The notes under the pieces were generated by a model, which made no database searches, was not told the origin of the DNA, and was given only the letters and a program-made list of their open reading frames with translations. The position numbers and the translations under genes were made by a program. From IMG/VR virus record IMGVR_UViG_3300030012_001663, positions 1 to 64,000 of that record: a DNA stretch of 64,000 bases. One strand, given 5' to 3'. Positions 12,444-60,000 of this stretch are shown here, piece after piece. The DNA comes from a virus. Position 1 is the first letter of the stretch, and every line of letters starts with the position of its first letter.

Positions 12444-12896
12444 ATGAAATGGTTTATACCAGGCAATGTACCCTCAAGTAAAAATGGTAGAAGATGGACC
12501 GGTAAGTATTTCATAGCAAGTAAATCTGTTATGAACTATAGGAAAGCAACAAAATCCTACTATGAGAAATTTGCTCCTCTGTTTAGAGAAGAGCTTAAGA
12601 ATCATAAACTACCCGTCTCAATAGCATTTACATTTGTTAGAGGTACTAAACACAAGTTTGATTATATAAACCCTGCACAAACTGTACAGGATGATATGGT
12701 TAAACATGGTTGGATTGAAGATGACAATGCTGAATTTATACTACCAGTATTTATACAGTATAGTTATGATAAAATCAATCCGGGAGTATTTATTGAAATA
12801 ATTGATAACACTGTAAATAATGATGAACACAAATCTAGATCTAAAAGATCAAATCCTCCTAACAAGACTAAAAGGAAAAGGAATATCACAACTTAA
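12444..12896 (+). CDS. rusA: RusA-like Holliday junction resolvase
   Basis: 150 aa. The first 115 residues match RusA: PGNVPSSKNGR at the start, a KFDYINPAQTVQDDMV segment, and IEDDNAEF, which supplies the catalytic acidic residues. It resolves branched DNA before packaging. The last ~30 residues are a very basic tail (many Lys/Arg/Asn) that overlaps the next gene by 77 nt, so the tail may owe its composition to the overlap. Confidence 0.75.
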   Translation: MKWFIPGNVPSSKNGRRWTGKYFIASKSVMNYRKATKSYYEKFAPLFREELKNHKLPVSIAFTFVRGTKHKFDYINPAQTVQDDMVKHGWIEDDNAEFILPVFIQYSYDKINPGVFIEIIDNTVNNDEHKSRSKRSNPPNKTKRKRNITT

Positions 12897-13212
12897 TATA
12901 TCATTCTCAGGGTCAGGAGACTCAGGAGATGTGGATGAGGTTGGTTATAAAACTAATGATGGGGTTGACTCATGGCAATTAGATATAAATAACAGACTAA
13001 TTGAATCAACTGAAGAAGAAAAAATAAAAGACATGGCTTATACATGGCTTTCTAATAATCTTCTTTATGATTGGGTAAATAATGAAGGTGGCTCAGGTCA
13101 ATTAAATATTAACTTGAGTGATTTTTCATGGGACTTAGACTATTATGAACGTACTGTCCAAGAACATAACTTTGATGGTCAAAATATTTTTAGAAATGAG
13201 TCGTGTGGTTAA
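12820..13212 (+). CDS. Small protein with GSGDSG motif (DUF6878-like, tentative)
   Basis: 130 aa. Residues ~24-42 read ISQLNISFSGSGDSGDVDE, then a polar region, WLSNNLLYDWVNNEGGSGQ and an acidic C-terminal half. From memory this layout resembles an uncharacterised family annotated DUF6878; I cannot verify it. Overlaps are long: 77 nt with RusA upstream and 17 nt with the next gene. It is the first gene of the run leading into the VWA/MoxR pair, and may belong to that cassette. Confidence 0.55.
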   Translation: MMNTNLDLKDQILLTRLKGKGISQLNISFSGSGDSGDVDEVGYKTNDGVDSWQLDINNRLIESTEEEKIKDMAYTWLSNNLLYDWVNNEGGSGQLNINLSDFSWDLDYYERTVQEHNFDGQNIFRNESCG

Positions 13213-13366
13213 GAACTTCTGTTGTATTTGTGAGAAACCTTTTGAAGGATTTGGACATAGTCCCAGACCATTAGCAGAGGATGGTTGTTGTTGTGATACC
13301 TGTAATTATACTAAGGTAATCCCAGCAAGATTATATATGGGGCAGTATCCAGGCACATATGATTAA
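13196..13366 (+). CDS. Small four-cysteine-motif zinc-finger protein
   Basis: 56 aa from ATG 13196, preferred because the frame upstream overlaps the previous gene and shows no conserved-looking sequence. It carries CCICEKPFEGFGHSP and DGCCCDTCN, a treble-clef or ribbon-like zinc site, then an ARLYMGQYPG tail. Small phage proteins of this shape are common and unassigned. Its stop overlaps the next ATG (TTAATGG). Confidence 0.6.
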   Translation: MSRVVKNFCCICEKPFEGFGHSPRPLAEDGCCCDTCNYTKVIPARLYMGQYPGTYD

Positions 13367-13713
13367 TGGCACATCCATTAATACACAGTAAAAGTTCTGT
13401 AAGAAAGTGGGGAGGCAAGGTTGAAGACTACCAGCATATACATGACTGGTTTGATGAGACTAAATCATGGTTAGGTCATTCTAACCATAGAGCCTTTCGT
13501 CATCATTCTGAAGGAATTTTTGAATGTGAAAAAATATTTGGTAAAAGTTTTACTAACTCTGATGGTAAAACAGTATATACCAGATATGTAGGTGAACAGC
13601 ACGTAAAAGAAGATTGTAATAATTATATACCATCTGCTAAAGAGTGGTTGTTTAATATTGGATCAGGTAATAGACCTGATTGGATGATGAAAACAATGAA
13701 AATTAATGATTAA
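13366..13713 (+). CDS. DUF6915-like protein
   Basis: 115 aa matching, from memory, the DUF6915 pattern: HPLIHSKSSVRKWGG at the start, IHDWFDETK, then a HRAFRHHSEGIF block and YVGEQHVKEDC, ending in a WL...WMM tail. The many conserved His residues suggest metal binding. The family is widespread in phages and bacteria, with no known function. It lies four genes upstream of MoxR, and its end overlaps the next gene by 8 nt. Confidence 0.65.
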   Translation: MAHPLIHSKSSVRKWGGKVEDYQHIHDWFDETKSWLGHSNHRAFRHHSEGIFECEKIFGKSFTNSDGKTVYTRYVGEQHVKEDCNNYIPSAKEWLFNIGSGNRPDWMMKTMKIND

Positions 13714-14062
13714 AATGAATTTAGAAGAATTTAAAATAACAAGAAAGCAATTACATGCAACTGAAGAAGACTTTGAATTAGCATTGGAAAATATAGATAA
13801 CTTAAAACTGTCACAGAATATTAAAGTATTATTCTGTAAAGATCTTTCATTTAATAGAAGACATAGATTTAGAGAAAGATTTGAAATCACACTAGAAGAG
13901 CGTGAGATGAGTACTGGGGAAATGTTTGAAACAATAAAAAGTACTGGAACAGATGATGAGAAGTCTATGTTTACTTATTTAGTAGAAAATGATATCAAAA
14001 AAGGTTTCTTTAACGGTGACTTTAATTTTATGAATGAACTTAAATTAGATTTAAAATGGTAG
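13706..14062 (+). CDS. Hypothetical protein, 118 aa, upstream of VWA gene
   Basis: Helical, charged protein with an alternative start at 13715, just after the upstream stop. No motif recognised. It overlaps the VWA-metallopeptidase gene by 7 nt and may therefore be made in step with it. The pattern of short overlapping genes argues that 13366-18901 is one transcript. Confidence 0.5.
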   Translation: MIKMNLEEFKITRKQLHATEEDFELALENIDNLKLSQNIKVLFCKDLSFNRRHRFRERFEITLEEREMSTGEMFETIKSTGTDDEKSMFTYLVENDIKKGFFNGDFNFMNELKLDLKW

Positions 14063-15213
14063 CAGAACAGTTATCTAAAGCAACTAAAACACTAATACTA
14101 GAGGAGCCCTTTTATGGGCTCTTTTTAGTTGGATTAAATAAAGTATATATAAAGACTATACCTACAGCTGGTGTTAGCAAACACGGTATAGGTGTACAAC
14201 TTGCAATAAACCCAGACTTTTTCTTAGAATTATCTAATGAACATAGAATAGGCTTAGTGAAACATGAGTTACTTCATATTTCATTTGGACATCTTATTAT
14301 GAGAGATATGTATCAAGATAAAAAGTTATTTAATATTGCAGCAGACATAGAAATAAACCAGTATATATCTCATAGCTACTTACCTGAAGGAGGTTTAACA
14401 TTACAAAGCTTCCCTGAACTAGATTTACCAGAGAAGGCAGGTACTAAAAAGTATTATGATTTATTGCAACAAGCTAAAGAAGATGGTACATCACCAACTC
14501 TTGACTCTTTGATGTCACAAATGGATGGTAATACACCCTATTGTCATACAACTTGGGATGAGCTAGATGAATTATCTGATGCTGATAAAAAGCTTATACA
14601 AAAGCAAATAGAGCATCAGCTAAAAGAAACTGCTGAGCAAACAGAGAAGAGGAGAGGTAATATACCGGGTGAACTAGCTGATTTAATACACAGGCTAAGG
14701 CATGTTGAACCACCTAAATTTGATTGGAAAGGATATCTAAGAAGATTTGTAGGTAATTCTAGTATATCATACACTAAGAAGCTAAGGAGAAAATATAACA
14801 AAAGATATATATCTAATCCTGGCCTAAAGATTAAGTTTAAGAATCATATACTAGTTGGTGTTGACACAAGTGGATCTGTATCTAATAAGGAACTTGTTGA
14901 GTTTATGAGTGAACTTACTCATATGCATAAAACCGGTCACAAGATTACAGTAGCACAATGTGATACGCAGATTAATTCTATAAAAGAATTTAATCCAAAG
15001 AAAGACTGGGAAATTAAAGGTAGAGGAGGTACTGACTTCCAACCTGTAATTGATCATTATAATGAGAAGAAAGGGCGTTATACAGCCCTTATATATTTAA
15101 CAGATGGTGAAGCTTATAGTCCTGATAACTGTCCACAAAATACCTTATGGGTACACAGTTCTCAATGTAGCATAAATGAAGAATTACCAGGATTAAAAAT
15201 ACAATTAAATTAA
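14056..15213 (+). CDS. Putative metallopeptidase fused to a VWA domain (DUF2201-type)
   Basis: 385 aa. The N-terminal half is a zincin-like domain with HELLH at 70-74 and ISFGH following. A linker with acidic and basic helices leads to a VWA domain from ~265: GVDTSGSVS (MIDAS, D270), then TVAQCDTQI and GRGGTDFQPV. This matches the DUF2201_N plus VWA-like pair. Such proteins act with MoxR-type AAA+ ATPases, the next gene, probably as substrate-binding adaptors. It starts by overlap with the upstream gene. The EEPFYGLFL coding stretch also forms a terminator-like hairpin. Confidence 0.78.
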   Translation: MVAEQLSKATKTLILEEPFYGLFLVGLNKVYIKTIPTAGVSKHGIGVQLAINPDFFLELSNEHRIGLVKHELLHISFGHLIMRDMYQDKKLFNIAADIEINQYISHSYLPEGGLTLQSFPELDLPEKAGTKKYYDLLQQAKEDGTSPTLDSLMSQMDGNTPYCHTTWDELDELSDADKKLIQKQIEHQLKETAEQTEKRRGNIPGELADLIHRLRHVEPPKFDWKGYLRRFVGNSSISYTKKLRRKYNKRYISNPGLKIKFKNHILVGVDTSGSVSNKELVEFMSELTHMHKTGHKITVAQCDTQINSIKEFNPKKDWEIKGRGGTDFQPVIDHYNEKKGRYTALIYLTDGEAYSPDNCPQNTLWVHSSQCSINEELPGLKIQLN

Positions 15214-15221
15214 AATTAAAA

Positions 15222-16490
15222 ATGGCACAAGTAAATTTAAATATTGAAGAACTAAAAGGTTTTGTAAACCACATTGTTAGTAATAATAGATTCTTACAAA
15301 AAGACCGTAAGAATCCAGTATCTATAGAAGTTGTAGGTGAGTCAGGTATTGGTAAGACTTCATCTATTATTGAAATGGCAAAAGAGCTTGACTTAGATTT
15401 TGTTAAGCTTAACCTTGCTCAGATAGAAGAGCTAGGTGATCTTGTAGGTTTTCCTGTAAGACAATTTCAAATGTATAAAGAGAAGCAAGTAACAGTATCT
15501 AATGATAACTTAGAAATGGTGACAGCAACACAAAGAGCAGCAGGTGCAAGCCTTGCTAATTTGAGTAGCACTGTAACTAAGAAAGTTGGCCAATGGGTTG
15601 ATGAACTTGCTGTACAGGAATATTTAAAGAATGGATTTAAAATGACCGGTAAGAATAGAATGTCTTATTGTGCACCAGAATGGATTTCTAATAAGAAGAA
15701 AGGTGGTATCCTGCTTCTTGATGATTGGAACCGTGCTGATGTACGTTTCATACAAGCTGTTATGGAACTTGTAGATAGACAGACTTATATCTCATGGTCA
15801 TTACCAGAAGACTGGCACATAATCCTAACATCAAACCCTGATAATGGTGACTATATGGTAAACTCTGTAGATGCAGCACAGAAGACCAGATATATCACTG
15901 CTAATCTAAAGTTTGATGTAAATGTATGGGCTAAGTGGGCAGAAGAAGCAGGAATAGATACACGTTGTATCAACTTCCTATTACTTCATCCAGAATTAGT
16001 TACACAAGAAACTAATGCAAGGTCTATTACAACATTCTTTAATGCAATATCTAGTTTTAATAACTTTGAAGAGAACCTATCACTAATTCAAATGATTGGT
16101 GAAGGTAGTGTAGGAGATGCATTTGCTTCTATGTTTACAACATTTATCAATAATAAACTTGATAAACTTGTAACACCTATGGATCTATTGACTCATGATA
16201 ATGAGCAATATATTCTTGGAGAACTAACTGGATGTATTGGTAAAGATGATTCATATCGTGCAGATATTGCATCTACTCTTGCAACAAGATTAGCTAACTA
16301 TGCTGTTGTATACTCAAAAGAGAATACAATTACGCAGAAGATTACTGATAGACTAGAAACATTATGTACTAAAGACTACTTTACAAATGATCTTAAGTAC
16401 TTAGTGGTAAGAACAATCTTTAATGGCAACAAAGCTAAGTTTAATAAACTTATGATGAAGCCTGAAATAATAAAAATGACAATGAAGTAA
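15222..16490 (+). CDS. MoxR-family AAA+ ATPase
   Basis: 422 aa. Walker A GESGIGKT (39-46), Walker B ILLLDDWNR (D167/D168) and sensor-1 ILTSNPDNG near residue 205, with DAAQKTRYI as an arginine-finger region. It is closest to the MoxR/dynein-related AAA_5 class, which remodels partner proteins with VWA co-factors. It starts 9 nt after the VWA gene and its stop overlaps the next start. Known MoxR-VWA pairs activate enzymes or act in defence; the phage target is not evident. Confidence 0.82.
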   Translation: MAQVNLNIEELKGFVNHIVSNNRFLQKDRKNPVSIEVVGESGIGKTSSIIEMAKELDLDFVKLNLAQIEELGDLVGFPVRQFQMYKEKQVTVSNDNLEMVTATQRAAGASLANLSSTVTKKVGQWVDELAVQEYLKNGFKMTGKNRMSYCAPEWISNKKKGGILLLDDWNRADVRFIQAVMELVDRQTYISWSLPEDWHIILTSNPDNGDYMVNSVDAAQKTRYITANLKFDVNVWAKWAEEAGIDTRCINFLLLHPELVTQETNARSITTFFNAISSFNNFEENLSLIQMIGEGSVGDAFASMFTTFINNKLDKLVTPMDLLTHDNEQYILGELTGCIGKDDSYRADIASTLATRLANYAVVYSKENTITQKITDRLETLCTKDYFTNDLKYLVVRTIFNGNKAKFNKLMMKPEIIKMTMK

Positions 16491-17536
16491 TGGCAAATAA
16501 AAGCGTTTTTCAAGAATTTGATGTTAACGCTCTAACACAATACAGCCTTGGTAGTAACTCAGAGAGATTTGGGTTACTATCAAGGGGTGTTGTAAATGAG
16601 GTTATATTAACAGAAGATAAAACATCTGTAGATGCTATGCATGATATAGTTAAAATACCTACTATAACATCACTAAAGAAAGGTAGTTATAAAAAAGCAT
16701 TTGTAATACCTGGCTGTGAAGTATCAGCAGATAGACTTAAACAATCACTGAAGGATCATGGTATAGCTATGACAAATGATTATGAGATTGCAGACTTAAT
16801 TATAACTCATGATAATCTACATCAAGGATTTAATAATGAGGAGAATATCAAAACAAATGTTTTGTTTGGTACAATATGGAACTATGAAGCATATGATATG
16901 TCTAAATCTAATTCTTTATTAGGTGTAAGTAATCCTAACAACCTTCGTGTAATTTATACTCCATCTGTAGCTGATAAAGTAAATAGATATAATCTTGATG
17001 AGGAGGTAAGTTTATATGATCTAGCATACCTAACAGGCTTGGGTTGTAACTTAGCATACAGAATAGGTACTGAGGGACTAGCAGTTGTAGATACTGATAC
17101 AGTTTTACATGAGTCAGCCTCATTAACCGTATTAGATGAAGAACTATTGCGTACTCTAGTAGGATGTTTAGAATCCTATAATGATGAAAACCTAGCAATG
17201 GCTTCTAAAATGATCCCAACATTGGATTATACAAAGAACTTGCATCTTATATGGAGATTAGCGGATACTCTCTACTCTTATAGTCATAAATTTAGTAGAG
17301 ATAAAGATGTGAACTATTGGATGCAAAAAGCTAATATTGATCACTATAGAAGTTTATCAGCAGAAGCTATGATTCAAGAACTTCACAATGAAGGTAAGCT
17401 TGACACAATAACATTTAGATATTTAGAGCCTATATGCAGGAAAGAAATATATATCTCTAATAGAGAACTATATGTATTTCAATGCCAAGTTAGGCCTGAA
17501 TACCGTAAATATTTAAAACACAGTACAAATGAATAA
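16490..17536 (+). CDS. Hypothetical MoxR-linked protein, 348 aa
   Basis: Not recognised. Residues ~68-105 (AFVIPGCEVSADRLKQSLKDHGI ... EIADLIITHDN) have the strand-helix-strand rhythm of a BRCT- or Rossmann-like fold ending in an acidic 'ADLIITHDN'. The rest is helical with no metal or nucleotide motif. It overlaps the upstream stop by 1 nt and the next gene by 8 nt, so it is probably part of the MoxR-VWA machine. Confidence 0.6.
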   Translation: MANKSVFQEFDVNALTQYSLGSNSERFGLLSRGVVNEVILTEDKTSVDAMHDIVKIPTITSLKKGSYKKAFVIPGCEVSADRLKQSLKDHGIAMTNDYEIADLIITHDNLHQGFNNEENIKTNVLFGTIWNYEAYDMSKSNSLLGVSNPNNLRVIYTPSVADKVNRYNLDEEVSLYDLAYLTGLGCNLAYRIGTEGLAVVDTDTVLHESASLTVLDEELLRTLVGCLESYNDENLAMASKMIPTLDYTKNLHLIWRLADTLYSYSHKFSRDKDVNYWMQKANIDHYRSLSAEAMIQELHNEGKLDTITFRYLEPICRKEIYISNRELYVFQCQVRPEYRKYLKHSTNE

Positions 17537-18761
17537 TGTATATAAAATTAAAATAAAAGTAAATGACAATGGTCTATATAGTGATGTAGACCTAAATAAA
17601 CTAGGATTATTTCTTGGTGATATTACAAACTACTCATGGTCAAGGCCAATGAGTAAGTTTGATAATGTGAAACTTAATCTTATTGATGCACCAGAATTAG
17701 TGCAGATAAAAGATAAAAAACTATATAGATATCCTAAGTTATGTTTACCAAGAATGAAGGTAGATCTTCTTAAAGAGAAGTATAATGTAAAAGTGGTCAG
17801 AGATAAAGCAAAATCAGACTACAGCATTATATCTATGAAGTATTTAGATAGCATTACTGCTGTTCCGTGGGATACTTATTATGATATCTCTATATTAAAA
17901 GATATGATAGATTATTTTACATCAGTACAACAACAGTATCCTGATACAATATCGGTAGACTTTGCAGATAAACTGAATATGCTTTATAGAACTCTACATA
18001 CAACAGATAGAATACATATAGATTTGCCATATTATTATGGTAATAACAATTCAAATAACTTTGATCTTGTTAGAGATGCAGCTAATAAAATTCTAAGAGA
18101 TGTTAGTGATAGCAGAAATCTTGTTTATGTAAAAGAAGAGAATGAGCAAGACTTTAATTCACTTATGTCAGGATCTCAGTTAGTTCTTGATAAAGTAATC
18201 AATAGTATATGTTCTGAAGATATGCATGTTATGACTGCAGATGAAGTAGATCAAATGCAAACTATGATACAAAGTGATGATAGAGCTAACAGAGCTCTTG
18301 CATTAGAAATGATGTCTAATTGTAACTTAGAAGCATGCCTTGATAAAGTTGCTTCAACATTCTATTTTAATTATAATTACTTAAAGGATGCTAACAACTG
18401 GAATCATGTAAATGTAAAAGCACTGAGAGAAAGACTTGGTGGTTTTACAAATGACCATGGTAATGATAGTCAGATATATATGTATCAAAATCTAATTAGA
18501 CTGCTAGTAGCAGAAACTGCATTTACAGAGTGGGCGTGGTTTGAAATTAGGAAACGTATATATAATAATGTATATTTAGGAAATAATTTAACCGGATCAG
18601 CAAAACGTGGTGGTGAGACTGTAGATAACCTTTTCACTATTAATATTGAGGATATAAAACTAAATGAAGAATTACAGAAGGCACTTATTGTAGAGCCAGA
18701 CGGTAATGAAATCATAGAAGAGTTAACAAGCCTTGATGGATTTGATGATCTACCATTTTAA
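17529..18761 (+). CDS. Hypothetical MoxR-linked protein, 410 aa
   Basis: Not recognised. A beta-rich first ~100 residues are followed by mixed helices and an acidic tail ending LDGFDDLPF. That type of acidic/hydrophobic tail resembles the partner-docking tails of SSB- or sliding-clamp-binding proteins, which may be coincidence. It overlaps the previous gene by 8 nt. With the preceding gene it is the largest unexplained protein pair of the early block. Confidence 0.6.
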   Translation: MNNVYKIKIKVNDNGLYSDVDLNKLGLFLGDITNYSWSRPMSKFDNVKLNLIDAPELVQIKDKKLYRYPKLCLPRMKVDLLKEKYNVKVVRDKAKSDYSIISMKYLDSITAVPWDTYYDISILKDMIDYFTSVQQQYPDTISVDFADKLNMLYRTLHTTDRIHIDLPYYYGNNNSNNFDLVRDAANKILRDVSDSRNLVYVKEENEQDFNSLMSGSQLVLDKVINSICSEDMHVMTADEVDQMQTMIQSDDRANRALALEMMSNCNLEACLDKVASTFYFNYNYLKDANNWNHVNVKALRERLGGFTNDHGNDSQIYMYQNLIRLLVAETAFTEWAWFEIRKRIYNNVYLGNNLTGSAKRGGETVDNLFTINIEDIKLNEELQKALIVEPDGNEIIEELTSLDGFDDLPF

Positions 18762-18766
18762 TAATT

Positions 18767-18901
18767 ATGACAGAAGAAGATATGAAATACAGACAAGGCA
18801 GATCTAGAAAACAAGTAGAATCAACGTATAAGTTGATGGACTTCTTACTAGTATTTGCCTTGGCATCTTCTATCATTGGTCTTATTATATCTATAATATG
18901 A
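18767..18901 (+). CDS. Small single-pass membrane protein, 44 aa
   Basis: A basic N terminus (MTEEDMKYRQGRSRKQ) is followed by a ~20-residue hydrophobic helix ending IIGLIISII. The stop overlaps the ATG of the nuclease gene (ATGA at 18898). A predicted inner-membrane peptide of unknown role. Confidence 0.5.
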   Translation: MTEEDMKYRQGRSRKQVESTYKLMDFLLVFALASSIIGLIISII

Positions 18902-19873: not shown

Positions 19874-20455
19874 ATGGGAAGCGTCTACACAGATTACTTT
19901 CAAAAGAGCAAAGTATTCCTCTATCCACTACTTAGATTGAGGAAGGGGATTACTTATGTTCCTATAGAAACGTATATCTGTTGGGATACTGTATTTGAAG
20001 AGACAGATAATAAATTTATGTGTCTGTATAAATCAGAGTATGATGACTCATTTAAAGAGTTTGAAGATGCTTTCTTAAAAAATCATGAGCTTTTGTTTGA
20101 GCATGTTAATCTTGGAAAGGAACAATTATATATTTTTGACTTTGAGATGTATGCACATGACTTTGAAATGTTTGCAACAGGTAAATATTCTAAATTCACA
20201 GTCAATAATAAAATAGCTATATTAGATTTCTTTGGTAGTCAAGGTAGAATATCTTCTTATGTAAAAGGTTTTCTAACACCAGATGAAGAGCTACACCAAC
20301 AGTATGCAGAAAGACTTGGAGTAGACAAAGAGGTGATGGAAAATATATTTGAGGTATGTAGTGTACCAGACATATATAAAGAAACATTGTATTGTAGTAT
20401 TCCTTTTGAAATAGATTTGTTTGGTAATGATAATTTGTTATCTTTGAACAAATAA
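19874..20455 (+). CDS. Hypothetical conserved phage protein, 193 aa
   Basis: Soluble, acidic protein opening 'YTDYFQKSKVFLYPLLRL', a start I recall from other phage proteins of unknown function. The body is rich in aromatic residues and Asp/Glu, with no catalytic motif. It sits between the exonuclease and PolB. Confidence 0.6.
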   Translation: MGSVYTDYFQKSKVFLYPLLRLRKGITYVPIETYICWDTVFEETDNKFMCLYKSEYDDSFKEFEDAFLKNHELLFEHVNLGKEQLYIFDFEMYAHDFEMFATGKYSKFTVNNKIAILDFFGSQGRISSYVKGFLTPDEELHQQYAERLGVDKEVMENIFEVCSVPDIYKETLYCSIPFEIDLFGNDNLLSLNK

Positions 20456-48006: not shown

Positions 48007-51000
48007 TTATATTTTTAAGGTACACTTAATGTTTTCTAAGAAAGCATCATCACTTATACCAAATTTAAGGTTTTTTCTTTTCTTTAGGAAGTCATCAAAG
48101 CTATTTATATCTTCCTTATCTGCAAGTATTGCTAACCTATCATTGAAAGGACCTATGTTTTCATTCCAATAATTAGTCATCTTCTCAACATCCATTTCAG
48201 ATCTTTTAGGTTTAAGCATAGCTTTTAATTTACTTGGAGTTTCTACATCATCTTCAACAGCAGTTCCTGTCTCAAACTCTTCTACTCCCTCTATCTGTTG
48301 CTCTGCTCTTTCAAGTGCTGTTGCTTGTGCTTTTGTAAGTTTAGATACAAACTTAGATATATTAGTATTATTTACTTGTACGTTAACACCATCAAATGAT
48401 ATATCCTCTGCACCAGAAAAATAATTAGGATCATTTATTCCTGCAGCTCTTTCAAAGTCTTCTAGATCATTTTCTTTGTTCTTCTCTACTACTGTTTCAA
48501 ATATTGTTTTACCAGTAGGTCTAGTAAACTCAACTGTATCAAACATAAACCCAATACCATTTTGACTTGTAGAACCTGTAGAGTTTACAATTAGATAATT
48601 TGTTTTCTTGTTTACAATATTAATATCTTGTCTATCTCCTGTATCCTCTAGTTCATATAAAACTTTATTAATTCTAAGATACATTGGTGCTATATAACCA
48701 TTAGGAGTAATTTCAAATGCTTGTAGGTCTGAAGCTCTTGCACCCTCTGCAGCAAAATCTATAGTAAGACCTTTGTCATTTATGCTAATAACATTGCTAC
48801 CGCTTGGCGGTGTATAAAGAGTTTTTACAAAAGACTGAGAAGAAGAAGACTTTAGGTATCCTTCTACAAACTCTTTAGTTAGTTCTTGTATGCTTTTACC
48901 AAATACATCTATAACTCTATTTGGATCATTTTTCTGAGATAAGAATTCTTTTGCAACTACTTCAGAGTTCTGAATAAATCTATCCATAACAAAAGGTGTG
49001 AGTGCTTCTAATAAAGAGCCTTCTGCAAATTGTAAACCATCTTTTACCATTACATAATGTAATATATGTATAGCATCTTCCTTAGTGTTTACCTCACCAT
49101 AAATTTTAGCAAAACCATTTTGTAGTTTTATTTTTTGATTATCACTTAGTCTAGCAAAAGTATTTGACACAGCTGTATTCAAACCTGTATTGTTATTTGC
49201 ATCTTTAAATGATCTGTTATACACAAAGAAATCTAAGAAGTAATTATCTTCATCTTTATATAACTTCTTTAATCTATCTACTACTACATTTATATTTTCA
49301 TCTGTAATACTATTAGGATATATCATTGTGTTAGATAGTGATCCTGATCCTATTTTTGCTTCTGTATTTAGTAATTGATTTCTATAAGCTGTAATAGTTA
49401 AAAAAGATAATAAATCAGTAGATATTTTTCTTATATCATTTTCTCTTAGTTGTTTTGTGTTAAAACCAAGAGTAGCTAACATAACTTTAAAGTCTGTACT
49501 GTGTGTCATGAGGATGTTTGGTAATAATACATCCTTAAATTCTTTGTGTATTTTATAGTTTGTTGCATGGAAACTATCACCCTCAAAAATCTTTCTGACA
49601 TCAAAAGGTACAGTCTTACCACCTTTTATTCTGTGTTGCTTGAACTCTTTGTTAGTTAGCCCTAATCCTAATTGACTTGCTGCACTTTCTTTACCAACAA
49701 TATCAGCTAAGTTCTTACCATGACCTTGCATTAAGTTAATAAGTGCAGTTGCATTAATACTGTGATTAGTTATAGTATTTACTTTTTGTAATACTCTAAG
49801 AATACCAACTGTTTGAGATTTTGTAACATCTTTATCATTTAAGGCTTTTAATAAAACACCATCTGTAACTTTAGCTGGCTTAGCTTTTAATTCTCGTATT
49901 CTAGCATTAATATTAAAATCTGATACACCTTCTTCTATTAATGCAACAACTTCAGGATTATTTACAAAATATATTGAAGTCTCAAGTGGTACACCTAAAC
50001 TTACCATAGTAGTAACATAACCAAGAGCAGTTTTGTTAAGACCTAGCTTAGATGCTAATCTTTCTTTTGCATTATCAGTCATTGCTGTAATCAACTCAGA
50101 TAATATATATTGTATTCTATCTCCTTTTTTATTCTGTCTATTATTCTCTAGTACGTAGTCTACACCAAATGTTTTAAATGTAGAATTATTTATACTAAAG
50201 TGATATTGTGGATCAAGCTTAATACCAAACTCAGCAAATAAACTATAATATAAGTTGGGTTTTACAACAACACCAATAGAGTCTGCACCTTCTTTATTGT
50301 TTTTGAATGATAAAGTTTTACCAAGTAAACTATTTACATCTGTTTTAACATCTGCTGTTCTCTTAGCAAACTCTGGTGCATCTACTTCTAATGACTTTCT
50401 TATCTCTGTAAGTCTTGTAAGCCCTGTACCTTCATAAGATATAGCTACATTATTTTTACCATCTATATTTCTAGGTGTAGTTACAAAGTCATTACCAAGT
50501 AAAGCAAACTTATAATCTAGATCTTTGTTTGATAAAGCACCCGCATATGGTTCACCATAAGTTTCAACATAGGTATTATACTGTTCTAGTGTAATAGGCA
50601 TACCAAGCATCTTGAGTGCTTTAATAGAGTCTAGTTCTAAACCTGATGTTCTTCCTATTGCAGTATTGTCATCATCAAGCTTGATAGTTTCTGATCCTTT
50701 GTTTCTTTTATCTAGCGCTTCTTTATAGATATTCTTACCCCTAGCTTTTATTTTACTATTAACGTATTCTACATAGTCTGCATAACCATTTGTACCATAC
50801 TCAACAAACTCATTACCTTTTTGATAAAACTCTTTAAAGTGTGTATATAGTTTATCAATATCAAAGTCAGCACCTGATATCTCTAATAAGTCTACAGGAA
50901 ATACAGCAGTTGAGCCAAGATAAGTTGGTAAGAAATCTATCAACTTAAGATTAATAGCTGAGTGATTATCTTGAGAAGGTATACGTACACCATATGCTTT

Positions 51001-54000
51001 TGCAACAGCGTCTGGCATAGATGCATTTGTATTTTTTATTCCTGTCACTACTTCACTGTGGTGTGCAGGCATTAAAAACTCAGAATATCTTTGTCCTGTA
51101 TATTTACCATTACTATCATATTCTTTCAATCCCATTCTTGGTTTATCAAGAACAATAACTCCTTGACCTTCTGATGCTTCTATAAGTCCAGCAAGTCCGT
51201 CCATATCTCTTGATATATCCAACACTGGTTTTTCATTACCAAATTGTTTGTGGTAAACATCTTCTCTAATAATTTCTTGTCTGTCTATATTACCGTTCTC
51301 ATCTAAAGACAATACTCTTCTATACACTTTAACACCATAACCTGACATTAAAGCAAGAGATGTTCCTGGTAATTTATCAGCCATTACACTCTTACTGAAA
51401 TATGCCATAAACAATTGCTCTGCTTTTGCAATAACATTAGGTGTGTTGAGACCATACTTCATAGAACCATCTTCATTTGTCATAAACTGTTCTATAATAT
51501 TAGAACTAGCTTGTGATGCTTTTAAAGATTCTGTTGCATACTGCAAGAAGTTATATAGATCTAACTGTAAATCAACACCAGGTTGTAATAACTCATCTGA
51601 CTTAACACCATCTAAATTATCAAAGTCAACTAGTAAGTTTCTTTTTTGTATATGACTAAGTAGTATCTTTTGTGAGTTGTTTTTATTGTACTGTTCTTTA
51701 ATGTCTTTGACAGTAAACTCAGTACCATTTATAGTAACCTTTGTATTATCTTTTTGCTCTCCTGTAATTAATGTTTTCATCTGTGTAGGAGATGTTATCT
51801 GCATTTTATTAGATGGATTTACTACCTGTAATCCCATAAAGTCTGTAGATAACTCAGTTACATTATTTTTATCTATTGCAGATGCACTAAATGCTTGGTC
51901 ATGAGTCAATACATTCTGCTTTAACATCTTAAGAGCTGAGGTAGGAGCACTGAATATAACAGTTTCATTTGCTCTTTCATACTCTTCCATTTTAATCCTC
52001 ATATTATGAAGCTCTACCTTATTAGGTTTTGGAATAGTATATTCTCCATTTTCATCTTTAAGTGAAGTAAGCTCTGGTGTTAGTGCTACAGCTGACATTT
52101 TTATGTATGTACTACCATCAAAGTATACCAGCTTCATAGAGTTCATAACATGCTGGTCAGATACATAACCTCTTGTGTCTTCTGATCCAAAGAATTGATC
52201 TGCTGTCACCTCTTCACCTGATTGTACTTGATCATGTAATTGTGCAAAACCTTTATTGAGTCTACCCATACCAAAGTTAGAATATCTAGATCCTTTGGTT
52301 GTCATATAAACTTGTGCATCTGTTTCTTCTGATAACTTATCATCTGCCTTTCTTTGATACATAGGATCATTAAATGGCAGTACGCCAAAAGAACTAAGTT
52401 TGTGATTAATACCTAACTCAGGTGCAACAAAAGGCACAGTAATATTCTTATGTGCTGCATTTTGTCCTTTACCTCTTTTTACCTGATCTACTGCATCTTT
52501 AAGAGTTCTACTCTCATCTCCAAGCAACAATTGATTGATTGCGGTAGTATTTAATTTATCATTAAAATATATCTGAGCTAAATTAAATGATGCATCTGAT
52601 CTTTTTAAATTTAATTGTTCCATTGCTAAGTCTACGTCAGCATCTAATTTTCCTGACTTGTTTACTAAACCTGTAGCTGCAACTGGAATATCTGAACCTA
52701 ATACTCTAAGCTGAGCTATTGTATCTAAAAATTCATCAAACTCATTCATTAAATTAGTTTGTACATGATTGTACAACTTACCTTTTAGTGTTGTAAGTTT
52801 CTTAACTGCATCTTCAAAAGATAGTTCTCCTTTATTTGCTATCTCTTCTAGTTCTGTTGCTACTTCTTCTGATAGATAACCTCTAGATGTAAATAGCTTA
52901 TATGCTCTACCGTTTTCATCTGAGTTATATCCTTCAATTCTATCTTGAGTAGGTTCAACAACTTCTTTTACAATTCTATTATATTCTTGTCTAAGTATAT
53001 CTACAAACTCATCTAGTACTGGTACAGCAATAGTCATATCAGAACCTGTTCCTTCAACAGCTTTGGTTACTGGTAATAGCATCATATCACCTGTATTAGA
53101 TGCTTCAAGCACTCTAATTAAAGATGGTGCAAGCGCAACCTTTTCTCCATTTACCTCTACTGTTTTGTTCTTAGAGTTACTAGTATTATATAGATAGGTA
53201 TATGCATTAATAAGATTTACTAAAAACTCTTTGGCTGTTTGTTTTCCATATGTAGTAGAATCTTGTTTAACCAAACCACCGTCTCCAATGATCTGACCTG
53301 CTTCACTTTGTTCTATACTTGCAACTCTTGAACCAGCTATTCTTAATATAGATATTTGATCTGTCTCAGATAATAAATTAAATGCATCTGATTTTAGCAA
53401 GTAGTTATTAGGATATTTCTCTTTAAGCTCTGCAATAAAATCACCATCATTCATTTGTACAGCCATCTTACTGTGGAATGTTGGTAACTGATGTAAGTAA
53501 ACCTGGTTACCATCAGCATTTATATATGTACTAGCACCTACATTCTCATCAAACTGCTCATTTGCTATAGCCATTCTAATAAGTCTAGACTCCATGCCTT
53601 CAACACCTTTGTCAAAAATGTTACCTGACTTATCTTCTTTTAATGTAGCACTACTAACAATATCTCTAAATGTAACAAAGTCTTTAGATGACAATGGTTC
53701 TACATTTTGATATTGTTTTATAAATGTCTTTTGTGCTTTTGTAGGTTCTAGAATAGCTTTGCCTTCATTTGCCACAAGCATGCTGTACTTAATATATCCT
53801 GTGCTAAGTAGTATACCTGTACTATTGTATAACTTTTCTCTAATAATCTCTGCCTCTTTAGATAAAGCTTTTTCAGAAATAGACTTTCTGCTTCTTGAAA
53901 GTTTACCTATTGCATAGTCAAACGTTTGTGTTGCTTGGCTCTTGCTAGATGCATTTCTTTTAATCTCATTTAGTTTTACATCATAAGCTGCTGACCATAT

Positions 54001-57000
54001 ATTTATCTGTGATCTTGCAGCATCTCTTGAAGCAGCATCATATAAATAAGTTTTATTATTAGCCGGGTCTTTCTGTACAAATAGGTAGTTAAACCTGGAG
54101 TTTTGGAAAGACTTAATAACCTGTATCAAGAATGCAGGATTATTAACTTGTACTGGCATTTGTTTATTATCAACAAGCATTTGTACATCTTCTTGACTCA
54201 TACCAGCATCATTAAATAATCTATCAACAAATGCTTTTGTGTGCATATTGTCTTGGCCATAATTATATAATGCAAGTAATATGTCTTCTGGTGTATTAAG
54301 ATTCTTCACTGCTTTTAATGCACCATTATATACTCTATCTACATCTACTGGAACAATTAATCTTGCCCCTTCTTTTGTTACTTCACCTCCTACACCAATA
54401 GTTTGATCAACTATAAATTCATTACCAAATATATCTGTGTCTTCTACAGTAATAGTACCTATGTATTGTTTAATTTGTGTAGGTATATTAGAAGCACCAC
54501 CAATCAAACTAGCATCTTTATCCCACTCACTTACATCACGTAGCCCTAAGTTTTCTTCAATAACTTCATTTATATCTGCCTTCTTATCATACTGTAAGTC
54601 ATAAAACTCTAATTGTTTTCTCACAGCTTGTATAATAGGGAATGAGCCAGGAGACTCTTCAAACATTAATGCTGTATTTATTTCTACAAGTTGGTCATAC
54701 AATTCATCAGATAATTCATTATATCTAGTTTGTTCTGGATCATAAAGCTCATAGTATTCATCATACATTTGATCTTCAACAGCCTGTAAAGTCATTTTAG
54801 GATTCTTTTCTTTTATTTGTAAGAATCTTGCCGCCATACTGCTGACTAGGAAAGTAGATATATTAGGATCAAGATATTCAAAATCTACAGTTCTTTCTCC
54901 TGCTATTTCTTTTATAGGTAAAAGTTTATATGCATCCAGAGTAACACCCTGATTAATCAACTCATCTGTATAAAGGTTATCTGTAGTACCTCTAGATCTA
55001 AACTTACCTGCATCAATTGATTCATACAAGCTTTGTAGTTCATTTTTAGAATACTTACCAAATACAGATTTTATCCATGCAATAAATCTGTTAAACAAAG
55101 ATTTAATAAATGATGCTGTCTGAGTATCTTTTGGATTCTTTTTAAATAACTCAAACTGATCTGCCATATACTCTTCAAAGAACTCTTGCTCTAATCTCTT
55201 ACGTGACATAGAACCATAGAGATCTGCAGAGTTTTTAAACTTCTGTATTTCTGTTTCAAAGTTCTTACCTTCTGATCTTAGTTTTGCTCTAAGTTCTTTT
55301 TCTGCTAAAGCTAAGTATTGTTTCTGCTCTTCTGGTGATAGTAACATTCTAAATACTGCATGGAAAGCTTCATGGTATCTAAACCCATGATCACCAACGT
55401 ATATAGTTCCGTTGATGTCTAAACCTCCTGCAAGAGAATCAAGAGCTAAAACAAATTTACCAACAGTGACTCCGTTTTCTTTTAGTCTGTTACCTACTTC
55501 ATTAATATCTTTTATAGTAATAAAGTTAGGTAGATTGTTTTCTGCCCATGACAAGAATGAATCAATCTTTTCAGTTTCTACTTCTGCAAACTCTGCAGGT
55601 AGTATTTTGTATGCACTAGAATTATTTAATTTTTTTCTAGCATTATCCACTTCTTTTTGTAAGCTTTGGTACTCTGTATTTTCATCAAGTGCTTTCTTTC
55701 TAGGTACACCGTCTTCTTTTGCCTGCTCATATATAGCTTTCTTAAGAGCATTGGCCTGTGCTTGTAGTTTATTAAACTCTTCTATCTGCTCTTGTCTTTC
55801 AGATACTTGTTCTGACTTAGCCGCTATTTCATCAAGCTTACCTATGTTAAGAGTTTCTTCCTTCTTAGTAGTCTCTTCTTTAACAACCTTTGTACTTATG
55901 ATCTTGTCTTTATCAGCCTGTGTAGAGTCAACAGAAAAATGTAATTTTCTTTTTGGTTGTCTAAACTGTATAGTAGTATTAGTTTGATCTAATATCTCAT
56001 CTACCGTAGCTGTTTCTGATATAGGCTCCTTAAAGCTTTCAGCACTAAGTGTATTATTTGGATTAACTTTATTGTATTCTGTAATTAAACTTGCAAGAAC
56101 ATCTGTTGCACCTGTCTCACCAATTGCACCATCTATAAGTTTTTGTATAGCATTTGCTTTGATCTCAACCTTTTTACCACCCATCATGTCTAATGTAATA
56201 GACCCATAAGGTGTAACCTGTACAGCTATTTGTGTACCTGCTTTACCAGCTAGATAGTAATCTGCCTTAATTTCTTTATTCCAATCTGTATTATAAGAAT
56301 TAGATTTTACTTTACCTTTTTTATCTACATTTGATTTAGCTGTATCTAATGCTCTTTGTATAATTGTTTTAACAAAGTACTCTTGTATATCTTCTTTTGG
56401 ATTTAGATTAAGTGGTGCTAGTTTAATAGTACCATCTGGTCTCTTCATCACTGCAGTGTAACCAGTTCTTAATGCTATCTTATATAAGTTATTATCCTTA
56501 AGATCTTTAACAACCTTATCATACAATGCTTGTGCTGCGTCAGAACCTTTTTCCAAACTACTCTCAAATGTTACAACTTGTTTGCCATTTACAGTTCTTC
56601 TAATTAATACAAACTTATTACCATCATAGGTATTGTTTTCTATTTCATTTACACTAACAGCTGGACCATTGTAATCAAAGCTTTCTCCTTGTATCTTTAT
56701 ATTAAGACCAAGATCTTTTAGTTCTGATATAGATACTGATGATTTACCATCTGCAAATAATTTATCAAATATTCTTACAACACTTCTAGAAGAGTTAAAC
56801 TCACTTAAGATGTGGTTTCTATCTGCAAAGCCTTCAAACATATACTCTAAAGAAGACAAAGGATTATCATTGATGCTAAGTCTCTTGTTATCTTGATTTA
56901 CAAACAAGTATTGTCTATTAGGCATATACGCAACTGGTTGTCCTTCATAGGTTAGAGTAATAGTATACTTCTCATTTACTTTCTTTATAAATGGATTCTC

Positions 57001-60000
57001 TAGTTTATCACCTATCTTCCAGCCTTTCTCTGGGACACTAACTGCAGGATTCTGTCCTATAGTTATTTCTAGATCATTGATATCTATTACATCAATAAGA
57101 TCTCTAAATCTTTTCTCAGCATCTTCTTTTGACTCACCGTCATTTCTATGAGCATATATACCAGTTAGTTCTCCTGGTCTTACTTTGCTATAGTTAGCTT
57201 TATTTTCAATAATCTTTTCTCTAAAGTTTACTTTGTCTTTAGTGTAGAGTTTAGCAAAGCCTACTTCTTGTACTAAAATGCTATCATCTCTCTTAGCATT
57301 AAAAGGTAGTAATGATATCTTGTTACCATCTACAAGACTTGTTGGTGATCCTAATATATAGAATCCTTGCCCTACAGAATTATAAACTACATCTCCTTCT
57401 TTTAGTTCTACACCATCAAAGACATATGTAGAAGTATCAGAGCCTTGTTTCATCAATGTCTTCCAATCAGCATGTGCTTTAGTCTGGCTTGTATAGACAC
57501 CAATGCTATTTAAATTTGCTTTTGTAAACATATAACCAGGCAATGACTTACCAAAGTTATCTGTAATTCTATAAGTTTTTTCTTTCTTACCGTTTACTTC
57601 TGTAGTAACCTCTAGTATATTAATACCGGGTCCTTTTTGTACCCACTTTCTTGTTGGACTTTGTACTGTATCTAAACCTTCTTGACTCAAGTCTTGCTCT
57701 ACTACATCTGCAATATTAACTGCACCTTTTGCTAAAATAGTTCTTACACCAACTTTACTAGAGTTTTGTGTTAACCATTCACCAAACTTGCTTTCATCTA
57801 CAGCTTCTTCTGTTGGTAAAGTTTCCATCCACATATTTCTAAGCTCTTGTAATGCATAGAATGCTTTTCTTGTAGACGCTAGATTTAACCACTCAGTTTC
57901 ACTTATAGGCTGCTCACCAGTATTCAGGGTGTTAACTTTATACTTATCATATAACTTAGTTAAAGAAGACTCAAGACTACCTTGTATCTCATCCTTTTTT
58001 ATTGGTGGAAGTTTTGATTCTTGTGCATCAATATTTTCAAAGGTTTGGGTGTCTTGAATTTCAGCTGCTTCCACATCAGGTTCAGCATTTTCTTCTTGAA
58101 CATCTTCTTCTGTTTGAGCTTGCTGCTTGTATACTGATATGGCGTCCTGGATTTTTGCATACTTATCTGGATTTGTTTCTTCTGTAACTTGACCAGCTTC
58201 ATCTTCAAAGTATTTTAATACAGATGCATCACCTGTAGTTAAGAAGTGCATTGCTGTTTGAGGATCAAGTACAACACCTAATTTATTCAGTTGGTTTAAT
58301 AATGTATTCTTTTCTACATCATTAACAGATGCTTTAATAATTTTTCTGAATGTCTTTCTGCTATTCTTAAATATGTTAGCCATTATAGGCTCTATTCTTT
58401 CTGCTAGTTTATCTAGATTATCTGGATCTCTTAATATCTCAATTGCTTTGTCATAAGCTCTTGTTCTTTCTTTAAGAGTACCATAATCAAGAAGTAATCT
58501 TAATGCCCTATCAACAGCTTCAGTATTTTTAAATGTACCTTTTTCTTCTGCTAATACATTAATATAATCTAAAAATGCTTTTCTTACTTTAACTATATTT
58601 TTTTTGCTTCTGCTAAACCTATCACCTTTTTTTGTTTGGTTCTCAGGTGCTGTAATTACATCATAGTAGTTCTGTAAAGCTTTAACTTTTTTCTTTTTGT
58701 TAGCTATATCTGTTCTAAAGTTACCTTTTGTATCTTTAAGAGTTTGTATTTCTTGCTCTAGTAAACTTATTTCTTTTTGTATTGTAGGTGCATCAGCAAG
58801 TACTTGTATATCATTAGCAGCACCTTCTGTAGCAAATATAGGTTCTGTTGCTAATTCATTATAAATACTAGTAGATCTTTCTAAAGCTCTTTGGAAACCA
58901 TCTTCAGTAAATAAATTCAAAAATCTAGCATGCTCATATGCTCTCCACTTAATCAATTCAAGAGTGTGCTCACGTGTACCTTTCTTAAACTTTTCTGGAT
59001 TATATTTATTTTGATATTTATTTTTGTGGTTTCTATATCTTTTCTCTTGCTTCTCTATTCTATTGATAAGATTATTTAGTCTTTCTCTACGTTTACCCGG
59101 TGTTTCTTCTTTAGCTCCTTCAGGGAAAGCTTCTATAAGTTCCTCATCAGATAACTGAGCAAGATCTCTTAATGCATCTGTGTAAAAATGAGTTCTACCA
59201 TTATCAAATAATGTCATAGAGTGTTGGAACTGTGCAAAATCTTTTGCGTCAAAGAAACCAAGAGGATCTCCTTCATAGTTGTATACATCCATTTCTTTGC
59301 TGGTATCATGCTGTACTGCAAAGTTTAATTTGTCTGGATTAAACTGACCATCAGGACTATCTAGCATTTCATTATAACCTTTGTTATACTGTTCTACTAG
59401 TTTCTCTATGTATTCAGTCTTTTGTTTTTGGTATTCCTGAAACTGTGCTTTGTTTACAAAACGGTTATACATATTAGGCATACCCTGAAATAAAATTCTT
59501 TGAGGTCCTTGTACTAATCCACCCATTAAGAAACCATGCATAAATGTTTCAAAACCTCTTGCTGACATTTGACTATCTACAGCTGAAGCAAACGCATGAT
59601 CCATTGCTTGATGATGTCCTGCAGATGGATGTTCTAGTATTTGAGAATAAAAGTCTTTCGTACCAACAGCAACTGCTTCTTGATAAACTTCTTGAAAACC
59701 TTCTGCAAAGTTAGCTGCAAAGTATCTTATAGCACCATGAGCACCTGCTCTAGCAGTACCACCTACTGTCCAAGACTTAATTCTTTTCATAGAAGGTAGA
59801 CCAAGCCACCCTTCTCCTACATCTTCAAAAACATCTCTAGATGCTTTACCTACTGCATCTCTTAATGGTTTAGTTCTTAGTATCCTTCTACCATAGTTAG
59901 TAAGTTGCTCATTAAATATTCTACCTAATGAACCACCTCTACCACTTAATGCTTTTTGTAATACAAATTTATTTGTAAGCCATATAAATGGAGCATTTAA

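Follow-up and report, generated by a model that had tools for sequence, protein, structure and literature searches.

What does a MoxR-like AAA+ ATPase do in the middle of a phage replication operon, and with which proteins does it work? The question is raised by a cassette of IMG/VR virus record IMGVR_UViG_3300030012_001663, a marine phage record of 95,396 bases in total, of which bases 1–64000 were analyzed (the window). Inside the DNA-replication gene block of this phage, a gene for a MoxR-type ATPase (15222–16490, plus strand) stands beside a gene for a protein with an HELLH motif and a VWA domain (14056–15213, plus strand; here called VWA). The original prediction, made from the sequence, had counted these two and all their neighbors as one candidate undescribed phage system. 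Our analysis reduces this list to five genes, P0 (13706–14062), VWA, MoxR, P1 (16490–17536) and P2 (17529–18761), all on the plus strand. We regard it as about 45% probable that they constitute one AAA+ remodelling machine of early or middle infection, equipped with client adaptors and working beside the replication proteins.

Results

A five-gene core

Related loci were fetched from IMG/VR with MoxR, VWA, P1 and P2 as queries, taking the best 80 loci per query; very distant relatives are under-sampled in this set and many loci share contigs. A single arrangement, P0-VWA-MoxR-P1-P2, was found across the fetched loci, which represent about 120 distinct sequences. P1 is present in all 227 loci with enough flanking sequence, P2 in 226 and P0 in 224, where its homolog lies directly 5' of VWA with a median overlap of 7 nucleotides (nt). 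Counting distinct P1 sequences only (n = 120), P2 and MoxR were found in 120/120, VWA in 118 and P0 in 112. The median gaps along the row are -7, 9, 1 and -4 nt, and P1 adjoins MoxR in every complete locus. The association of the five genes is far above chance, their order and spacing are fixed, and their linkage is obligatory within the clade.

Some genes appeared to be missing at first. P0 was initially counted in only 37 of 150 loci and would have passed as optional, but the open reading frame (ORF) filling the gap 5' of VWA proved to be a diverged P0 homolog (hhalign 6e-16); P0 had been overlooked in most loci because its sequence diverges. The apparent losses of VWA or MoxR that were inspected trace back to group I introns or to the ends of contigs or of the fetched windows, and where a gene seemed to be absent (loci L166, L273, L158, L173, L193 and L019) it was present in each case.

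Two irregularities were seen in individual loci. The frames of MoxR, VWA or P1 are interrupted by short gaps in L217 (6731–7999), L055 (8883–12221) and L053 (8815–9994), which resemble frameshifts from assembly, or decay, more than introns. An extra ORF of about 128 amino acids (GRYYxGDIxGKFxFGSQ...) with a weak Imm70 match (0.009) is located between VWA and MoxR in L022 (9572–10000), L166 (3578–3964) and L173 (6319–6705).

The ATPase and the VWA protein

The MoxR protein (422 amino acids) matches the ATPase family PHROG_1297 (3e-33), with sub-threshold matches to Pfam AAA and AAA_5. Because the best solved relative of its profile in the PDB is midasin (1.6e-6), the name MoxR-like is fair. The Walker A (GESGIGKT) and Walker B (LLLDD) motifs, sensor-1 N205, R223 and R267 are conserved, and G42, G44, K45, D167, N205, R223 and R267 are nearly invariant across 16 distant ATPases. 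The second acid of Walker B is Asp instead of the usual Glu in 28/28 aligned sequences of the clade.

The VWA protein consists of a DUF2201_N putative metallopeptidase domain (5e-21) and a DUF2201 VWA-like domain (5e-17), both above the Pfam cut-offs, and matches PHROG_1314 (3e-67); the PDB gave no match. Its predicted catalytic motif HELLH occupies residues 70–74 (H70, E71, H74), and the metal ion-dependent adhesion site (MIDAS) is complete (D270xS272xS274, T326, D350), with conserved DxSxS, GGT and DG motifs. Eighteen VWA proteins from the clade, distant phages and Clostridia were aligned. The residues H70, E71, H74, H79, R83, N93 and D97, which form an HExxHxxxxH pattern plus D97, are nearly invariant, as are D270, S272, G273, S274, G324-T326, D350 and G351 of the MIDAS set. 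Among these 18, HExxH is degenerate only in RM378, which has lost the first His. The pairing of the two proteins in the replication block was thus borne out by domain matches and intact motifs, and the HELLH and MIDAS residues, on whose preservation in relatives the original prediction had made its case depend, are retained in close and distant relatives alike.

PHROG_1314 and many RefSeq records label this protein as an HNH endonuclease (e.g. NC_008720 gp25, NC_031039 g029 and NC_013692 gp35). As Pfam shows only metallopeptidase and VWA domains and no HNH in the homolog studied here, this label is probably a mis-annotation.

A domain shared by P0, P1 and P2

No family match was obtained for P0, P1 or P2. 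All three, however, contain a common helical motif, ITxEEFxxLxxMxxSxxEDxxLAxEIxxN. In profile comparisons with hhalign, P0-P2 gave 1.5e-5, P0-P1 2.8e-4 and P1-P2 1e-4, whereas four unrelated controls gave 0.09–0.45. When the 95-kb genome was scanned with a hidden Markov model of the motif, only the P0, P1 and P2 ORFs matched; the model was built from these proteins themselves, and the informative part is its absence from other ORFs. P0 is a helical protein of 118 amino acids, while the shared domain lies at residues 206–254 of P1 (348 amino acids) and 227–275 of P2 (410 amino acids).

AlphaFold models of P1 and P2 reached predicted local distance difference test values of 92.8 and 91.9, respectively, but searches of both against the PDB gave neither a sequence match worth reporting nor a global fold match. 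In the isolated-phage collection no relatives of P1 were found at E<=1. Among the predicted viral proteins of BFVD, P1 has four matches (E 3e-8 to 4e-6), namely in CrAss-like virus ctYsL76, in an uncultured Caudovirales phage and in two different proteins of Podoviridae ctz6O13, suggesting that a P1/P2-like pair is present in other crAss-like phages.

Ahead of the structure searches, the N-terminal half had been noticed by eye to show a pattern resembling BRCT. The predicted order of secondary structures in P2 (beta-alpha-beta-beta-alpha-beta-alpha) fits BRCT, and P2 shows a local structure match to the BRCT domain of PARP1 with a probability of 0.98 and a root-mean-square deviation of 2.0 over 49 columns, but an E-value of 0.16; P1 matches the BRCT protein of Serratia phage JS26 with a probability of 0.84, but an E-value of 0.35. 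The sequence evidence stays below threshold, in contrast to BRCT domains such as those of PARP1 and NAD-dependent ligase. PF00533 was hit in 6 of 57 P1 members without reaching the Pfam gathering score (best E 0.0083); in L223 the match covers residues 65–102 with 15.3 bits against a cut-off of 21.3. These weak matches fall at the expected position and are thus consistent with BRCT, but in profile comparisons with the LigA BRCT domain the candidate windows of P1 and P2 did not outrank control windows. Because of the poor E-values and the failed LigA comparison, we call residues ~66–106 of P1 and 62–136 of P2 BRCT-like but unproven; the models are only suggestive of such a fold.

Slow engine, fast partners

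The members of the core evolve at very different rates. A common set of 108 loci gave median identities to the window of 87% for DnaB, 85% for MoxR, 77% for VWA, 72% for PolB, 41% for P1 and 30% for P2, where the values of MoxR and VWA are flattered by the choice of loci, which was made partly by similarity to these two proteins. MoxR is thus conserved about as strongly as the DnaB helicase. The contrast between a slow engine and fast partners nevertheless holds against PolB, RusA and primase, since it is independent of that choice. P2 is the fastest-evolving gene of the operon, with a median ratio of non-synonymous to synonymous substitution rates (dN/dS) of 0.45; P1 has 0.22, and the other operon genes range from 0.05 to 0.17, apart from a gene starting at 19874 (0.27). 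This gene (19874–20455), located after the exonuclease gene, encodes another fast-evolving protein without known function (median identity 45%) and is a homolog of g047 of phage phi14:2.

Homing elements usually occupy invariant codons of important genes. In L166 (4503–5596) and L273 (3447–4534), a group I intron (RF00028, 78.8–81.5 bits) with a GIY-YIG/NUMOD endonuclease divides MoxR beside its Walker-B codons. In L173 (4262–5390), the HELLH codons of VWA are themselves interrupted; the inserted element encodes a LAGLIDADG endonuclease and matches group I introns less well (40.3 bits, E 1.9e-8, under the gathering threshold). Given this habit of homing elements, their position at the HELLH and Walker-B codons agrees with both active sites being strongly constrained.

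Setting in the genome and neighboring genes

The genes recognized around the cassette encode DnaB, PolB, Sak4, primase, RusA and a PDDEXK exonuclease; the cassette lies between the last two in the replication operon. Homologs of Sak4, primase, RusA, PolB, ribonucleotide reductase (RNR), uracil-DNA glycosylase, an SNF2-type protein and the protein at 19874 are found in largely the same order in the crAss-like Cellulophaga phage phi14:2, which has one small gene at the equivalent site; no homolog of the cassette was detected in its first 40 kb. When counterparts of the crAss TerL, portal and major head protein were sought by phmmer with bases 1–49999 of crAss001, only a similarity to gp40 (8e-7) was found in the structural half. 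The crAss-like affiliation assumed in the original prediction therefore applies, as judged from sequence, at least to the replication genes, while membership in Crassvirales is not confirmed by the structural genes, whose divergence is too great.

All ORFs that had been listed for the cassette were found in place on the plus strand, overlapping or 5–8 nt apart. Four of them are not part of the core, being optional by the census of 227 loci: a DUF6878 protein (12820–13212, Pfam 7e-11, 62 loci), a Cys-rich, zinc-ribbon-like protein of 73 amino acids (13145–13366, recognized by its Cys pattern, 8 loci), a protein confirmed as DUF6915 (13366–13713, Pfam 9e-41, 60 loci) and a peptide of 44 amino acids with one hydrophobic stretch (18767–18901, 17 loci). 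Both Pfam matches exceed the cut-offs, the 44-residue peptide has no family match, and NCBIfam gave weak matches only. Hence, of the neighbors that had been named as members, P0, P1 and P2 stand and these four do not.

Farther away, a single ORF of 4426 amino acids without a PHROG match (48007–61287, minus strand) adjoins ORFs of 1913 and 893 amino acids; these possibly belong to the giant proteins, either of the virion or resembling RNA polymerase, that crAss-like phages typically have. Near-identical cassettes also occur in two contigs binned as Pseudomonadales (L304, 114.7 kb, MoxR identity 82%) and as a Campylobacteraceae metagenome-assembled genome (L305, 81%). They are probably phage contigs within these bins and do not settle the host assignment.

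The pair in other phages and in bacteria

A tblastn search with the VWA protein retrieved 436 records from the isolated-phage collection. An ATPase gene adjoins the VWA gene or is at most about 2.5 kb away in thirteen inspected phage neighborhoods (N4, LIT1, XC38, MTATph1, phiFa, AR9, RaK2, Pag-Yong1, AD45-P1, S-TIM61, RHph_TM29, SA1 and RM378); in Va1 the annotation is too sparse to decide. The pair is found next to helicase and DNA polymerase genes in LIT1 and XC38 and next to a helicase gene in MTATph1, positions that, like the replication operon of the phage studied here, speak for action in the early or middle phase.

In N4 the pair corresponds to gp24 and gp25 (PHROG_1297 and PHROG_1314), described as an AAA ATPase and a vWFA protein (PMC2784036) and as core genes of N4-like phages (PMC7650795). 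The N4 proteins are homologous to ours, with the same domains and motifs, and their genes are adjacent in a non-structural block, but the ATPase gene comes first. The VWA relatives of N4-like phages are about 28% identical to the protein studied here. A MoxR protein beside a vWA protein with an N-terminal metallopeptidase domain has also been described in group 2.2 jumbo phages by a survey of 2021 (PMC7824862), whereas here the pair is part of a replication operon and has three dedicated partners. Clostridia possess a cellular MoxR-DUF2201 pair (e.g. L307, L338), whose two genes are neighbors and retain every catalytic and MIDAS motif, but with MoxR first. Beside the pair, P0, P1 and P2 gave no detectable match in N4, LIT1, AR9, RaK2, RM378, the other phages or Clostridia, nor in the partial records of crAss001 and phi14:2. 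The partners thus accompany the pair throughout the clade but not elsewhere. On the function of the phage pair, our literature search returned only the proposal for jumbo phages and N4-like genome papers, and no gene-essentiality data for N4 gp24/25 were found in the published main text searched. The pair itself is therefore not undescribed, as had been suggested; the five-gene elaboration with its shared new domain, however, appears to be so in the literature and databases searched.

Discussion

MoxR-VWA pairs elsewhere remodel multiprotein complexes, e.g. midasin and RavA-ViaA (reviewed in PMC7159879). In the machine proposed here, the MoxR AAA+ ring would be the ATP-driven engine. The VWA protein, which carries a zincin-like, probably metallopeptidase domain, would be the MIDAS-bearing adaptor subunit through which the ring is coupled. 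P0, P1 and P2, with their shared helical domain, would be dedicated adaptors that bring or hold the client. This client would be a nucleoprotein complex, belonging either to the host or to the phage, that the machine remodels and perhaps also clips. In doing so, we infer complex formation, ATPase catalysis, protease activity and an adaptor rather than substrate role of the three partners.

Several points weigh against this proposal. The Walker-B Asp of the clade could lower ATP hydrolysis, DUF2201 is a metallopeptidase by prediction only, P1 and P2 could be clients instead of adaptors, and in RaK2 and S-TIM61 the pair is located next to annotated virion genes. A more specific version, in which three paralogous fast adaptors, two of them BRCT-like, target the frozen engine to replication or other DNA-bound complexes, is more tentative, and we consider it doubtful at present.

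The strong difference in rates between engine and partners might also point to host takeover or counter-defence, in which case complexes of the host or of defence systems would be bound by P1 and P2 and then taken apart or cleaved by the AAA+ engine. MoxR-vWA modules are known from bacterial conflict systems, including ternary ones in which, as here, vWA and MoxR are joined by at least one extra conserved component (PMC7159879), and early expression in AR9 would suit such a role. The system studied here, however, is phage-encoded and has other third components; Pfam detected no VMAP, no FtsH third component and no effector domain fused to vWA in the cassette proteins. PADLOC gave no convincing match, median dN/dS stays below 1, and the core is obligatory in the clade and not patchy like most anti-defence genes. 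We therefore hold this explanation to be unlikely. Of the two roles offered in the original prediction, remodelling remains plausible, while a conflict system found no direct support.

For the jumbo phages, a virion-assembly chaperone combined with a processing protease has been proposed, an archaeal two-tailed virus serving as the analogy (PMC7824862). The position of the pair in RaK2 and S-TIM61 agrees with this, and some of the virion proteins of Roseobacter phage RPP1 map close to the homologs of N4 gp24/25 (PMC4193335). In the phage studied here, however, the cassette lies away from the structural genes. In addition, the AR9 ATPase gene stands directly behind an annotated early promoter, whose class was confirmed by differential RNA sequencing (PMC5312081), and N4 gp24/25 are middle genes (PMC4193335). 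Although this timing is drawn from relatives, placement in the replication block together with the AR9 promoter argues against a purely late role in assembly, which we regard as rather improbable.

It is also conceivable that the MoxR-VWA pair alone is the functional unit and that P0, P1 and P2, though linked to it, have a role of their own as replication proteins, since all other phage lineages examined have the pair without them. The fixed interleaved order, in which P0 overlaps VWA and P1 abuts MoxR, the shared domain and the linkage of P1, P2 and MoxR in every distinct sequence make this very improbable. Least probable of all is a chaperone inserting metal or cofactor into a phage metalloenzyme such as RNR, comparable to the action of NorQD or CbbQO on enzymes of the host. 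Known MoxR-VWA pairs do activate metalloenzymes (reviewed in PMC7159879) and the phage encodes RNR, but about 20 kb separate the RNR genes from the cassette with no linkage seen, and phi14:2 has RNR but no cassette homolog in the stretch searched.

Conclusion

A remodelling machine built from the five genes is the reading that we prefer. The near-frozen engine next to fast partners and the introns in active-site codons indicate that the machine matters to these phages. Isolated phages with this pair number in the hundreds, among them such laboratory phages as N4 and AR9/PBS1, and the question of its function dates from the sequencing of their genomes. The clade described here adds dedicated partners to the bare pair, which can be used as bait for the client. 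If three paralogous adaptors do direct the engine to DNA-bound complexes, the system would represent a new class of phage DNA-metabolism remodeller whose client specificity is swappable.

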